The notes under the pieces were generated by a model. It saw only the letters and a program-made list of their open reading frames with translations. It was not told the DNA's origin and ran no database searches. Shown here piece after piece: positions 1,671 through 36,524 of a DNA stretch of 64,000 bases (its first letter is position 1; the number at the start of each line of letters is the position of its first letter). Origin of the DNA: Actinomarinicola tropica (lineage in GTDB: Bacteria; Actinomycetota; Acidimicrobiia; Acidimicrobiales; SKKL01). Made by a program: the position numbers and the translations under genes. The stretch lies in NCBI RefSeq assembly GCF_009650215.1, contig NZ_CP045851.1:2693001-2757000 (forward strand), read 5' to 3'.

Positions 1671-2219
1671 ATGACGTGGTTGGCCGATCCCTCCGCCATC
1701 GTCGAGGACGGCGCGGTCGTCGGTGACGGCACCCGGATCTGGCACCACGCCCACGTCCGCAGCGGCGCCCGCATCGGGGCCGGCTGCAGCCTCGGCAAGA
1801 ACGTCTACGTCGACGCGGGCGTGCGACTCGGCGACGGGGTGAAGGTCCAGAACAACGTCAGCATCTACCGCGGCGTCGACATCGGCGACGAGGTGTTCCT
1901 CGGCCCGTCCTGCGTCTTCACCAACGACCTCCTCCCCCGGGCGGGCAACGACGACTTCCGGGTCGTGCCCACCACGGTGCGCCGGGGCGCGTCGATCGGC
2001 GCCAACGTCACCATCGTCTGCGGGACCACGCTCGGCGAGTGGTCGATGGTCGCCGCCGGGTCCGTGGTGACCCGCGACGTCGCCCCCCACCAGCTGGTGC
2101 TCGGCAACCCCGCCCGCCACCACGGCTGGGTGTGCCGGCGGGGCCACGTGGTCTCCCGAGCTGCCGAACCGCCCCCCGACCCCGACCGCTGCCCGGCCTG
2201 CGAGGAGCCCGCCCCGTGA
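1671..2219 (+). CDS. Hexapeptide-repeat N-acetyltransferase (WbpD/WlbB-like)
   Basis: A 182-residue left-handed beta-helix acyltransferase. Hexapeptide turns run from about residue 8 to 150, including GKNVYVDAGVRLGDGVKVQN and NNVSIYRGVDIGDEVFLGPS, very like WbpD/WlbB, which acetylate the 3-amino group of UDP-2-acetamido-3-amino-glucuronate. The C terminus carries CRRGH...CPAC, a possible small zinc site that WbpD relatives often show. The start is either the ATG at 1671 or the in-frame GTG at 1665; a GGGAG lies at 1646-1650. Its TGA overlaps the GTG of the next gene, a DegT aminotransferase that would supply its amino-sugar substrate. The specific sugar is inferred from family and context. 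Confidence 0.85.
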   Translation: MTWLADPSAIVEDGAVVGDGTRIWHHAHVRSGARIGAGCSLGKNVYVDAGVRLGDGVKVQNNVSIYRGVDIGDEVFLGPSCVFTNDLLPRAGNDDFRVVPTTVRRGASIGANVTIVCGTTLGEWSMVAAGSVVTRDVAPHQLVLGNPARHHGWVCRRGHVVSRAAEPPPDPDRCPACEEPAP

Positions 2220-31646: not shown

Positions 31647-32324
31647 TCAGGACTCGTCGGACGCCTCGGCGGCCTCGCCACCGGCATCCTCGGCGTCGCC
31701 ACCCTCGGCGGCCTCGCCCTCGGCGCCCTCCTCGCCCTCGGCGGCCTCCTCGCCCTCCTCCTCGAGGGCGGCACGGGTGACCGACGCGGTCACGAGGACC
31801 TCGTCGGGCTCGGCCTCGGTGCGGGCACCGGAGGGCAGGGTGAGGTCGGCCACGGTGATCGTGTCGCCGACAGCCATCTCGCTGACGTCGATGACCAGCT
31901 CGTTCGGGATGGCGCTCGGCTTGGCGTAGACCGACAGGGTGTAGTGGACCTGGTCGACGACGCCCTGCTCGGCGAGGACCTGCTTGGCCTCGCCCTCGAG
32001 CACGAGCGGGACCTCGACGAGGATCTCGGCGTTGGGGTCGACCCGGATGAAGTCGACGTGCACGACGTCGTTGCGGATCGGGTGGCGCTGGAGCTCACGG
32101 ACGATGCACAGCTCGTCGGAGCCGTCGACGTCGAGGGTGATGATGGCGTTCAGGCCGGCGTCGGTGGTGAGCGCCTGGCGCAGCTCGCGGCGGTCGACCG
32201 CCAGGGTGATGGCGTCGCCGCCGAGTCCGTAGAGGACGCCGGGGATCTGCCCCTCGTCGCGGAGTCGGTTCGACGGCCGGGAACCGGTGGTGCGACCGAC
32301 GTTGGCCGTGAGGGTGACATCCAT
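31647..32324 (-). CDS. rplY: 50S ribosomal protein bL25, CTC (general stress) form
   Basis: A 225-residue protein combining the L25 5S-rRNA-binding domain (about 1-90: TGSRPSNRLRDEGQIPGVLY) with the C-terminal beta domain of the CTC form (PLVLEGEAKQVLAEQG, IPNELVIDVSEMAVGDT). The last 40 residues are almost only Glu, Gly, Ala and Asp, a long acidic tail common in actinobacterial L25. The ATG at 32324 has AGGAG upstream. It precedes pth by 12 bases. A hairpin (arms 32383-32389 and 32394-32400) lies in its leader. Confidence 0.95.
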   Translation of the reverse strand: MDVTLTANVGRTTGSRPSNRLRDEGQIPGVLYGLGGDAITLAVDRRELRQALTTDAGLNAIITLDVDGSDELCIVRELQRHPIRNDVVHVDFIRVDPNAEILVEVPLVLEGEAKQVLAEQGVVDQVHYTLSVYAKPSAIPNELVIDVSEMAVGDTITVADLTLPSGARTEAEPDEVLVTASVTRAALEEEGEEAAEGEEGAEGEAAEGGDAEDAGGEAAEASDES

Positions 32325-32413
32325 GGTGGGCAGTGCTCCTGGCGACAGGTGAAGGGGGCGATCCCCGTGGGGACACGGGTGGGGGGCGCGACGGCGCCCC
32401 GGGGCAGTCGGCC

Positions 32414-32444
32414 AGTGTACGCCCTGGCCGGGCGACCTCACCAA
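32414..32444 (-). promoter_or_regulatory. Candidate promoter for rplY-pth-mfd
   Basis: In the 138-base gap after prs, the minus strand shows TTGGTG (32439-32444) and TACACT (32414-32419) with a 19-base spacer. The spacing is long and the -35 match is partial, so this is a weak call. A 7-bp GC hairpin lies just downstream in the leader. Confidence 0.3.
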
Positions 32445-32462: not shown

Positions 32463-33443
32463 TCAGCTCTGGTTCTGGCCGCCGAAGATCTCGCTGACCG
32501 ACGTGTCCTCGAAGACCGCGTCGATGGCGTCGGCGATGATGTTCGCCACCGACAGCACCTCGATCTTGTCGAGCTGCTTCTCCGGCGGGAGCGGCAGGGT
32601 GTTGGTGACCACGATCTTCTCGATCGGCGAGTTCTTCAGGCGGTCGATGGCCGGGCCGGAGAAGACGCCGTGGGTGGCGGCGGCGAGGATCCGGCTCGCG
32701 CCCTTCTCGGCGAGCTGCTCGGCTGCGGCGACGATGGTGCCTGCGGTGTCGATCATGTCGTCGATGAGCACGCAGGTGCGCCCGGCGACGTCACCGATGA
32801 CGTCGCGCGCCTCGACCTGGTTCTTCTCGCCCTTGAGGCGGCGCTTGTGGATGATGGCCAGGTCGGCGTGCAGCATGTTGCTGTAGCGCTCGGCGACCTT
32901 CACCCGGCCGGCGTCGGGCGACACGACGACGAGGTCGTCGCCGAGGCCGCGCATGTAGTCGACGAGCACCGGCATGGCGACGAGGTGGTCGACCGGGCCG
33001 TTGAAGAAGCCCTGGATCTGCCCGGAGTGCAGGTCGACCGACATCAGCCGCTGGGCGCCGGCGGCGCCGAACATGTCGGCCACGAGGCGGGCGGTGATCG
33101 GCTCGCGGCCCTCGGACTTCCGGTCCTGGCGGCCGTAGCCGTAGAAGGGCATGACCACCGTGATGCGCTTGGCCGAGCCGCGGCGGGCGGCGTCGACCAT
33201 GATCAGGTGCTCCATGATCGCGTCGTTGACGCTCATCTCGTCGGTGGCCGTGTGGCTCTGGATGATGAAGACGTCGCTGCCCCGCACCGACATGCCGAGC
33301 TTGCAGTGCAGCTCGCCGTTGGCGAACTCCGAGCAGTTGGAGTCGACGAGCGGGACCCCGAGCTGCTCGGCCACCTCCTCGGCGAGCTCGAAGTTCGCCC
33401 GGCCGGCGATGAGCGCCAGCTTCTTCTTGGTGACCAGCTCCAT
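32463..33443 (-). CDS. prs: Ribose-phosphate pyrophosphokinase
   Basis: A 326-residue class I PRPP synthetase. It shows VMPFYGYGRQDRKSEGREPI, the conserved DLHSGQIQGFF (Mg-ATP site), VVSPDAGRVKVAERYSNML and the PRPP-binding loop VLIDDMIDTAGTI. The enzyme makes PRPP for purine, pyrimidine, His, Trp and NAD synthesis. ATG at 33443, 38 bases after glmU, as in the actinobacterial glmU-prs-rplY-pth order. No unusual features. Confidence 0.97.
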   Translation of the reverse strand: MELVTKKKLALIAGRANFELAEEVAEQLGVPLVDSNCSEFANGELHCKLGMSVRGSDVFIIQSHTATDEMSVNDAIMEHLIMVDAARRGSAKRITVVMPFYGYGRQDRKSEGREPITARLVADMFGAAGAQRLMSVDLHSGQIQGFFNGPVDHLVAMPVLVDYMRGLGDDLVVVSPDAGRVKVAERYSNMLHADLAIIHKRRLKGEKNQVEARDVIGDVAGRTCVLIDDMIDTAGTIVAAAEQLAEKGASRILAAATHGVFSGPAIDRLKNSPIEKIVVTNTLPLPPEKQLDKIEVLSVANIIADAIDAVFEDTSVSEIFGGQNQS

Positions 33444-33481
33444 GGTGCGTCCCCGTCGCTCGGCGGCTTGGTGGGGTCGGG

Positions 33482-34588
33482 CTAGAGGCCCGGATCCTCG
33501 CTGCTGCTCGCAGTGTAGAACGGTCCGGTGCGGGCGCCGGCCGGCACCTGGGCGCCGGGCTCGAGCACCGCGAACGGCCCGACCCGCGCGTCGGGTCCCA
33601 CCTCGGCGTCGCGGGCCACCGTGTGCTCCAGCACCGCGCCGGCACCGATCGCGCAGTCGACCAGGTGGGTGCCGGGGCCGATCTCGGCGTGGGCGCCCAC
33701 GACCGTGCGGCCCTGGAGCACGACGCCGGGGAAGAGGGTGACGTCCGGAGCCAGCTCCACCGTGGCGTCCACGTAGGTGGCGTCGGGGTCGACCATCGTC
33801 ACGCCCCGGCGGAGCCAGTCGCGGTTGGTGCGGGCACGCAGCCGGGCCTCGGCCGCCGCGAGCTGGGCCCGATCGTTCACGCCGTGGGTCTCCGACGGGT
33901 CCGGTGCGACGTAGGAGCCGACCGGGTGGCCGGCGTCGCTCAGCACCTGGACCACGTCGGTCAGGTAGTACTCGCCCTGCGCGTTCTCGGGGCTCAGCCG
34001 GCGCAGCGCCGGCGCGAGCAGCCCCCGCCGGAAGCAGAAGATGCCGGTGTTGATCTCGCGGATCGCCTGCTCCTCGGGCGTGGCGTCGGCCTGCTCCACG
34101 ATGCGCACCACCCGGTCGTCGCGGCCGCGCACGATGCGGCCGTAGCCGGTGGGGTCGTCGAGCTCGGCGGTGAGGATCGTGCACGCCGCGCCGCTGTCGC
34201 GGTGGGCGGCCACGAGGGCGGCGATCGTCTCGGCCCGCAGGAGCGGGGTGTCGCCGGGCATCACGATGACGTCGGCGTCGTCGCCGGGGTCGTCGGTGAA
34301 CGCGGTGAGCCCCACGCTCGCGGCGTCGCCGGTGCCCCTCTGGACCTGCTGCTCGACGAAGTCGAGGCGCACGTCGGGGCCGAGCTCCTGGAGCTTCTTC
34401 GTCACTCGCTCGGCGCCGTGACCGACAACGACGACGGCCCGGTCGATCTCGCAGCCGGCCAGGGCGTCGAGGACGTAGAGCAGCATCGCCTTGCCGCACA
34501 GCATGTGCAGCGGCTTGGGGCGGTCGGAGCGCATGCGGGACCCCTCGCCCGCCGCCAGGATCACCGCCGAGAGGTCACTCGAAGCCAT
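33482..34588 (-). CDS. glmU: GlmU-type N-acetylglucosamine-1-phosphate uridyltransferase, short form lacking the acetyltransferase site
   Basis: A 368-residue protein; bifunctional GlmU is usually 450-490. The pyrophosphorylase domain is complete: VILAAGEGSRMRSDRPKPLH, QVQRGTGDAA, GDTPLL, YGRIVR and INTGIFCF. The beta-helix begins normally (VELAPDVTLFPGVVLQGRTV) but the protein stops at TGPFYTASSSEDPGL, about where E. coli GlmU reaches residue 345-350. The acetyl-CoA and catalytic residues (K351, H363, N386 in E. coli) are therefore absent. prs follows 38 bases later, leaving no room for a shifted remainder. It should make UDP-GlcNAc only if GlcNAc-1-phosphate comes from another acetyltransferase. 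Confidence 0.9.
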   Translation of the reverse strand: MASSDLSAVILAAGEGSRMRSDRPKPLHMLCGKAMLLYVLDALAGCEIDRAVVVVGHGAERVTKKLQELGPDVRLDFVEQQVQRGTGDAASVGLTAFTDDPGDDADVIVMPGDTPLLRAETIAALVAAHRDSGAACTILTAELDDPTGYGRIVRGRDDRVVRIVEQADATPEEQAIREINTGIFCFRRGLLAPALRRLSPENAQGEYYLTDVVQVLSDAGHPVGSYVAPDPSETHGVNDRAQLAAAEARLRARTNRDWLRRGVTMVDPDATYVDATVELAPDVTLFPGVVLQGRTVVGAHAEIGPGTHLVDCAIGAGAVLEHTVARDAEVGPDARVGPFAVLEPGAQVPAGARTGPFYTASSSEDPGL

Positions 34589-35502: not shown

Positions 35503-35575
35503 CTCGCGGGGGAGGGATCGAACCTCCGACCTCCTGATCCAAAGTCAGGCGTTCTGCCAATTGAACTACCCGCGA
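35503..35575 (-). tRNA. tRNA-Gln (anticodon UUG)
   Basis: A complete 73-nt cloverleaf on the minus strand. The acceptor stem pairs TCGCGGG (35569-35575) with CCCGCGA (35504-35510), with G as discriminator at 35503. The D arm is GTTC/GAAC; the anticodon stem CCTGA/TCAGG encloses CTTTGGA, giving anticodon TTG; the T arm is GGAGG-TTCGATC-CCTCC. CCA is not encoded. It sits between the HTH-linked membrane protein gene and the bS22 gene. Confidence 0.95.
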
Positions 35576-35779: not shown

Positions 35780-35803
35780 CCGACCGCCCTCAGGGGCGGT
35801 CGG
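35780..35803. terminator. Bidirectional hairpin terminator between bS22 and ispE
   Basis: CCGACCGCCC (35780-35789) and GGGCGGTCGG (35794-35803) form a perfect 10-bp stem with loop TCAG. The loop contains the TGA stop of ispE on the minus strand. The two genes converge here, so the hairpin can serve both. There is no clear U-tract on either side, as is common at high GC. Confidence 0.6.
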
Positions 35804-36524
35804 TTCGCGTGACCACGCGACCCTCGCCGGGGAACGCGCCCTCGACGAACCAGGTCGAGCCGCTCCCAGCGAGCACCGGCGTGCGCCCCGTCGCGTCGCC
35901 CAGGCGGTCGCGCCACTCGGCCAGACGTGGCTCGACGCGGAGCGCCGCGGGCTCGAGGTCGTTCGGACCGTCGGCCGTCGGGCCGCCCATCTCGTCCCAC
36001 GCCGCGTAGACCGCCGGCGTCGAGCAGCCGAACGGCGGCGTCAGCAGCGTGAAGGTGCGGGCGACGGGCGGCAGCGGGTCGACGACCTCGCCGATGCCGG
36101 TGACCCGAGCTCGTCCGCCGACGAGGCAGAAGGCGACGTCGGCGCCGAGGCGGGCCGCGGCGGCGAGGTCGTCGAACCCGGCCCAGCGGAGGATCGCCGC
36201 GGCGTCGGCGGAACCGCCGCCCAGGCCCGCGCCGGCCGGGATGCGCTTGGTCAGCTCGACGTGCGCCGTGCGGTCGGCGAGTCGCAGCGCTCGCGCCACG
36301 AGGTTGTCGTCGTCGACCGGCACCGGCAGGCCGCTGGCCCCCCGCACGACGAGCCCCTCCCCCGGCCGGACGACCAACTCGTCGGCGAGGTCGAGGGTGA
36401 CCATCTCGGCGTCGATCAGGTGGTACCCGTCGTGGCGGACGCCGGTGATCCGCAGCGAGAGCGTGAGCTTGGCCGGGGCGCGCAGCACCTCGACGCCTGC
36501 GGTGGCGGGCGGGGCGGGGTCCAT
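35790..36524 (-). CDS. ispE: 4-diphosphocytidyl-2-C-methyl-D-erythritol kinase
   Basis: A 244-residue GHMP kinase of the MEP isoprenoid pathway, somewhat shorter than the usual 280-310. Markers are APAKLTLSLRITGVRHDGYH, the ATP loop PAGAGLGGGSADAAAILR, GADVAFCLVGGRARVTG (catalytic Asp) and AGSGSTWFVEG. The usual APAKINL is APAKLTL here, with Asn replaced by Thr; whether this affects activity is unclear. In mycobacteria ispE follows ksgA/rsmA; here three other genes lie between. Its stop codon is in the loop of a terminator hairpin. It is divergent from the MBL-fold gene. Confidence 0.92.
   Translation of the reverse strand: MDPAPPATAGVEVLRAPAKLTLSLRITGVRHDGYHLIDAEMVTLDLADELVVRPGEGLVVRGASGLPVPVDDDNLVARALRLADRTAHVELTKRIPAGAGLGGGSADAAAILRWAGFDDLAAAARLGADVAFCLVGGRARVTGIGEVVDPLPPVARTFTLLTPPFGCSTPAVYAAWDEMGGPTADGPNDLEPAALRVEPRLAEWRDRLGDATGRTPVLAGSGSTWFVEGAFPGEGRVVTRTDRP

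Follow-up and report, generated by a model that had tools for sequence, protein, structure and literature searches.

Every bacterium with peptidoglycan requires UDP-GlcNAc, and the bifunctional GlmU is regarded as a nearly universal enzyme and a drug target. This enzyme, described by the family models TIGR01173 and PRK14352, has a uridyltransferase domain marked by the motif set GxGxRMxSxxPK, GTG, GDxPLL, GYGR and GVND, and an acetyltransferase active site whose residues we take to be R333 (the Arg of the LRPG motif), K351, H363, Y366, N377 and K392 in E. coli numbering. An engineered E. coli form, GlmU-Tr331, presumably keeps the uridyltransferase activity and lacks that of the acetyltransferase. 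It is cut inside the beta-helix and has been crystallised as a pyrophosphorylase (PDB 1fwy, 1fxj). A natural GlmU reported to be without the acetyltransferase domain is that of Chlorobaculum limnaeum, which appears as a passing mention in a survey (PMC7725333); the mention concerns one species and does not itself name a replacement enzyme. The two GlmU activities are also split in the case of GlmR/YvcK, an accessory uridyltransferase that forms UDP-GlcNAc from GlcNAc-1-P and UTP and has no acetyltransferase activity (PMC10128056); this protein is, however, unrelated to GlmU and works beside the full enzyme.

The eukaryotic GNA1 is a small GNAT with a Lys/Arg pair that binds the 6-phosphate across the dimer. 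Its Glu-Asp pair contacts the 3-OH and 4-OH of the sugar, and its conserved cysteine is not needed for catalysis (PMC3413214). The apicomplexan GNA1 evolved independently (PMC5838249), which provides a precedent for a GNAT being recruited independently for this reaction. Our literature search, with subscription journals mostly outside it, turned up no publication that connects a shortened GlmU with Acidimicrobiales or with a GNAT.

Results

The glmU gene and its locus

The window, which denotes the whole stretch of 64,000 nucleotides that was analysed, contains a glmU gene whose product resembles bifunctional GlmU in its uridyltransferase domain, in its motifs and in the conserved gene order glmU-prs-ctc-pth-mfd (Table 1). 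The complete motif set is present, in the form of LAAGEGSRMRSDRPK, QRGTGDA, GDTPLL, GYGRI, EINTGI and GVNDR, and the family models match over the domain, in agreement with the full uridyltransferase domain claimed in a preliminary description of this DNA. Unlike the bifunctional enzyme, the protein ends early. Its match to TIGR01173 spans profile positions 2–345 of 452 with 356.6 bits, which is below the curated family cut-off of 366.85 bits, and its match to PRK14352 spans positions 5–357 of 488. The alignment to E. coli GlmU (1hv9) stops at residue 349, within the range of about 345–350 given in the preliminary description and ahead of K351 and H363, and the alignment to M. tuberculosis GlmU stops at 363–371 of the constructs used. 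The same description correctly listed K351 and H363 as lost but slightly understated the extent of the loss: all acetyltransferase active-site residues are absent, the Arg of the LRPG motif being replaced by Glu and the remaining residues lying beyond the stop codon, which precedes K351. At the LRPG position the commonest residues in 32 sequences of the order are other than Arg; in the full-length GlmUs it is Arg (7/7).

The stop codon (TAG) occupies positions 33484–33482 and the ATG of prs lies at 33443, so the spacing of 38 bases proposed earlier is exact and a shifted remainder of the gene is impossible. In the genomes of the order that were compared, prs remains next to the shortened glmU. 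Compared with the laboratory-made GlmU-Tr331, which is likewise cut inside the beta-helix, the form described here is natural, order-wide and slightly longer. The best reading of the motifs and alignments is that the shortened GlmU would act only as a uridyltransferase.

In the GTGDA motif (approximately residues 85–89), the usual His of GTGHA is Asp in 32/32 aligned GlmUs of the order, and in seven full-length GlmUs this position is occupied by His or Arg and, in one case, by Asp.

Table 1. Features of the glmU locus and of the other genes discussed. Positions refer to the window unless a contig or locus is given.
Feature	Position	Strand	Remarks
glmU, putative uridyltransferase-only form, 368 aa	33482..34588	-	exact ORF
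glmU domains			uridyltransferase, residues ~1-250; partial beta-helix, ~260-355; acetyltransferase active site absent
glmU C-terminal end	33482..33547	-	TGPFYTASSSEDPGL and the residues just before
glmU-prs gap	33444..33481	.	38 bases; too small for a shifted remainder
prs (ribose-phosphate pyrophosphokinase)	32463..33443	-	next downstream of glmU
ctc/rplY-like gene (50S L25)	31647..32444	-	in the conserved glmU-prs-ctc-pth-mfd run; true start probably downstream of the first TTG
tRNA gene	35503-35575	-	between glmU and ispE
ispE	35790..36524	-	conserved neighbour upstream of glmU in 16/20 compared loci
beta-helix acetyltransferase, WbpD/NeuD kind	~1671-2219	+	not a GlmU C-terminal domain
GlmS-like protein, 1147 aa	L064:9618-13061 (genome C1)		directly after glmM
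candidate GNAT, 144 aa	C1:3208764-3209192 (genome position)	-	outside the window

Distribution of the truncated GlmU

The truncated form is genuine, ancient and characteristic of the whole order. None of 59 genomes of the order, which we infer to be Acidimicrobiales, has a GlmU that extends past profile position ~350, although these genomes span 56 families, and the GlmU is likewise short in 24 further order genomes from a sample of the class. The count of full-length GlmUs is thus 0/83, and the lineage trait suggested in the preliminary description is confirmed. A hit in G009 that covers positions 2–362 is a read-through past the stop codon, the real protein having 359 aa. The cut-off for a full-length GlmU is passed by 94/104 genomes from other orders of the class; the remaining ten are mostly incomplete or split at contig ends, with G170 as a real exception. 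The 32 aligned GlmUs of the order end at nearly the same place, most of them with a TGPFY-like end followed by a short variable tail, implying that the truncated form is old and has been kept. It was seen directly in Aquihabitans sp. G128, for which the genome is complete, and in a Ferrithrix record.

In 11 of the 59 order genomes (G013, G029, G030, G033, G036, G037, G038, G042, G050, G053 and G056), some of which are >95% complete, there is no GlmU match above ~85 bits. The GNAT described below is present in all of these except G033. In one of them (L447, G030:C14), the ORF located upstream of prs, in the place of glmU, encodes a relative of GlmU that has lost the LAAGxGxRM motif for nucleotide binding and seems to be a degenerate or repurposed form of the enzyme.

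Search for the missing acetyltransferase

The genome is a single contig of 3,715,454 bp with one GlmU, and neither a second GlmU nor a detached GlmU C-terminal domain was found in it. UDP-GlcNAc synthesis needs another acetyltransferase, as had been argued before with a source of GlcNAc-1-P as the other option. The glmM gene is present with a divergent glmS-like gene directly after it, and the de novo route thus appears to be retained.

Screens were made family by family and covered the GNATs (PF00583) and the hexapeptide proteins (PF00132) of this genome. A stand-alone LbetaH acetyltransferase had been suggested as one kind of replacement, next to a GlcNAc kinase/mutase, but the hexapeptide proteins of the genome include no GlmU-like one and are all assigned otherwise. 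They comprise DapD, a gamma carbonic anhydrase, GlgC, a sugar-1-phosphate nucleotidyltransferase, and proteins of the O-acetyltransferase-like, LpxD/NeuD-like and WbpD/NeuD-like kinds, the last of which lies in the window. Neither next to glmU nor within the glmM operon was a conserved acetyltransferase recognised, except for rimI further along, which an outgroup with full-length GlmU also has.

The GNATs of this genome and of five other genomes of the order were compared with those of one outgroup with a full GlmU. A GNAT of 144 aa represents the only family that is clearly found in 6/6 order genomes and is absent from the outgroup, whereas the RimI, mycothiol-synthase-like and phosphinothricin-type families occur in order genomes but in the outgroup as well. 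This GNAT, which has another fold than the replacement suggested in the preliminary description and was not proposed there, is the best candidate.

Co-occurrence of the GNAT with truncated GlmU

The GNAT profile scores 165–255 bits in 34/35 genomes of the order versus 3/104 from other orders of the class (Fisher p ~1e-27, uncorrected for shared ancestry), and the co-occurrence within the order is mostly one evolutionary event. The gene occurs as one copy in 57/59 genomes of the order, a set covering 56 families, and it was not found in G033, G057 and G171, all of which are fragmented assemblies. In a sample of 347 genomes of the phylum, the GNAT is present in 24 order genomes, in five clear outsiders and in one weak one. 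It does not lie with glmS, glmM or glmU; the recurrent neighbours in the order are a PAC2-like gene and a glnD-like gene (L287-L302, L303-L382).

Outside the order, the GNAT accompanies further truncations. In G170, which belongs to another order, GlmU stops at position 242 and is followed immediately by prs, and the uridyltransferase domain of this GlmU groups among relatives of family f62 that have full-length GlmU (95/92 support). Two Acidobacteria-labelled genomes also carry the GNAT, and their GlmU shows only the uridyltransferase part, as an intact ORF of 255 aa reaching position 240 in one and as contig-edge fragments ending by 241 in the other. The GNAT contig of G503 differs in its genes, among them a gcvP-like pair, from the GNAT neighbourhood of the order, which argues against contamination. 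The truncations in G170 and in the Acidobacteria-labelled genomes are apparently independent of that in the order.

In a few genomes (G101, G104, G286, G432, G468, G475 and G442) the GNAT is found beside a full-length or near-full GlmU, with weaker matches of ~130 bits in G432 and G475, and the link is consequently strong but one-directional. Families that combine the GNAT with a full GlmU (f73) have the appearance of a transitional stage. The GNATs from G101, G104 and G170 cluster in a single clade (98/91), which fits a gain of the GNAT first and a loss of the GlmU domain later.

Structural features of the candidate GNAT

The mean column identity of 47 GNAT orthologues is 70%, in our judgement unusually high conservation for a GNAT. 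The predicted structure (pLDDT 95.7) displays the GNAT fold, with GNAT matches throughout. The PDB fold matches of the model include the GNA1s 6yug (TM 0.80) and 3fb3 (TM 0.77), the latter presumably the T. brucei enzyme, together with AAC(3) amino-sugar (aminoglycoside) acetyltransferases and other GNATs. The Glu-Asp pair of GNA1 corresponds to E77 and D78, which are invariant in the 47 sequences, although the pair is not unique to GNA1 and is also present in the phosphinothricin-type GNAT of this genome. By contrast, the candidate shares a low sequence identity of 21–26% with the GNA1 structures and has a different loop after the fifth strand. The conserved cysteine of GNA1 is absent from the alignment, and for this reason the protein is not filed as a GNA1. 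Five Arg residues (R73, R115, R118, R133 and R139) are invariant; to place them relative to the Lys/Arg pair of GNA1 would take the structure of a complex. N-alpha-acetyltransferases and streptothricin acetyltransferases score similarly against the GNAT; these scores, the occurrence of the Glu-Asp pair elsewhere and the absence of the cysteine mean that neither sequence nor fold settles which substrate is used. The similarities of the model are consistent with a GNAT that may work like GNA1.

Discussion

We consider it probable that UDP-GlcNAc synthesis in this order proceeds by a split pathway, in which the candidate GNAT acetylates GlcN-6-P or GlcN-1-P and the truncated GlmU serves as a uridyltransferase only. 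The activity of the GNAT, its substrate and the order of the steps are what we infer from the pattern observed. In the common ancestor of the order, the C-terminal half of the GlmU beta-helix would have disappeared together with the GlcN-1-P acetyltransferase, and the shortened protein would have survived as a monofunctional GlcNAc-1-P uridyltransferase. Acetylation would be performed by the separate, single-copy GNAT, most likely on GlcN-6-P, as eukaryotic GNA1 does. GlmM would subsequently convert GlcNAc-6-P to GlcNAc-1-P, from which the shortened GlmU would make UDP-GlcNAc. In a close alternative, the GNAT would acetylate GlcN-1-P, after the action of GlmM. A more specific proposal, which we advance tentatively and rate at somewhat under an even chance, is that the pathway has been rebuilt in the eukaryotic step order, with a bacterial GNAT that is not orthologous to GNA1 acting on GlcN-6-P, GlmM as a GlcNAc-phosphate mutase and GlmU as a plain uridyltransferase, and that the GNAT has spread horizontally and has more than once let GlmU shed its acetyltransferase domain.

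The acetyltransferase could instead be a protein outside the families screened, of a different fold or from another GNAT subfamily, and the order-wide GNAT could have an unrelated job. The screens in this genome covered only proteins with PF00583 or PF00132, which leaves room for such an enzyme, as do the existence of other conserved GNATs, for example the phosphinothricin-type one (which, however, the outgroup with full GlmU also has), and the coexistence of the candidate with full GlmU in a few genomes. This explanation does not account for the same GNAT being found with two further GlmU truncations outside the order, and we regard it as unlikely, with a real but minor chance of being right.

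The GlmS-like protein encoded after glmM has an insertion of ~220 aa near its N-terminus and a C-terminal extension of 313 aa. A divergent form of 1100–1200 aa occurs at this place in most of the order, and an ordinary glmS in others. The best structural match of the extension, a weak one, is to the large (180-kDa) mycobacterial glutamate dehydrogenase. It is very improbable that this extension is the acetyltransferase. It is well conserved (47–81% identity) and has no convincing Pfam assignment, as such a role would allow, but at least 13/41 genomes have an ordinary GlmS of 607 positions, several of them together with a truncated GlmU, and the model of the extension (pLDDT 89.5, pTM 0.60) matches no acetyltransferase, so that the structure matches leave this candidate unsupported.

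That GlcN-phosphate is not acetylated at all and that the cells live on salvaged GlcNAc is extremely improbable, since glmM and the GlmS-like gene, found in nearly all genomes searched, would be pointless without the acetylation step. Finally, a local pseudogene or an assembly error, for which a single stop codon would suffice, is refuted by the order-wide pattern; of the two, the preliminary description had named an assembly error as a possible refutation. The same end point and nearly the same terminal motif recur across many families and their assemblies, no uridyltransferase motif is damaged and the genome is one contig.

The split pathway has consequences beyond this locus. An entire order of bacteria, common in soils, lakes, oceans and sewage plants, seems to carry out the acetylation with a different, separately encoded enzyme. 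If this is true, the annotation of many genomes would be corrected, as the family models call the gene a bifunctional GlmU. The GNAT would represent a bacterial counterpart of GNA1, and the order would provide a test case for the replacement of an essential enzyme domain.
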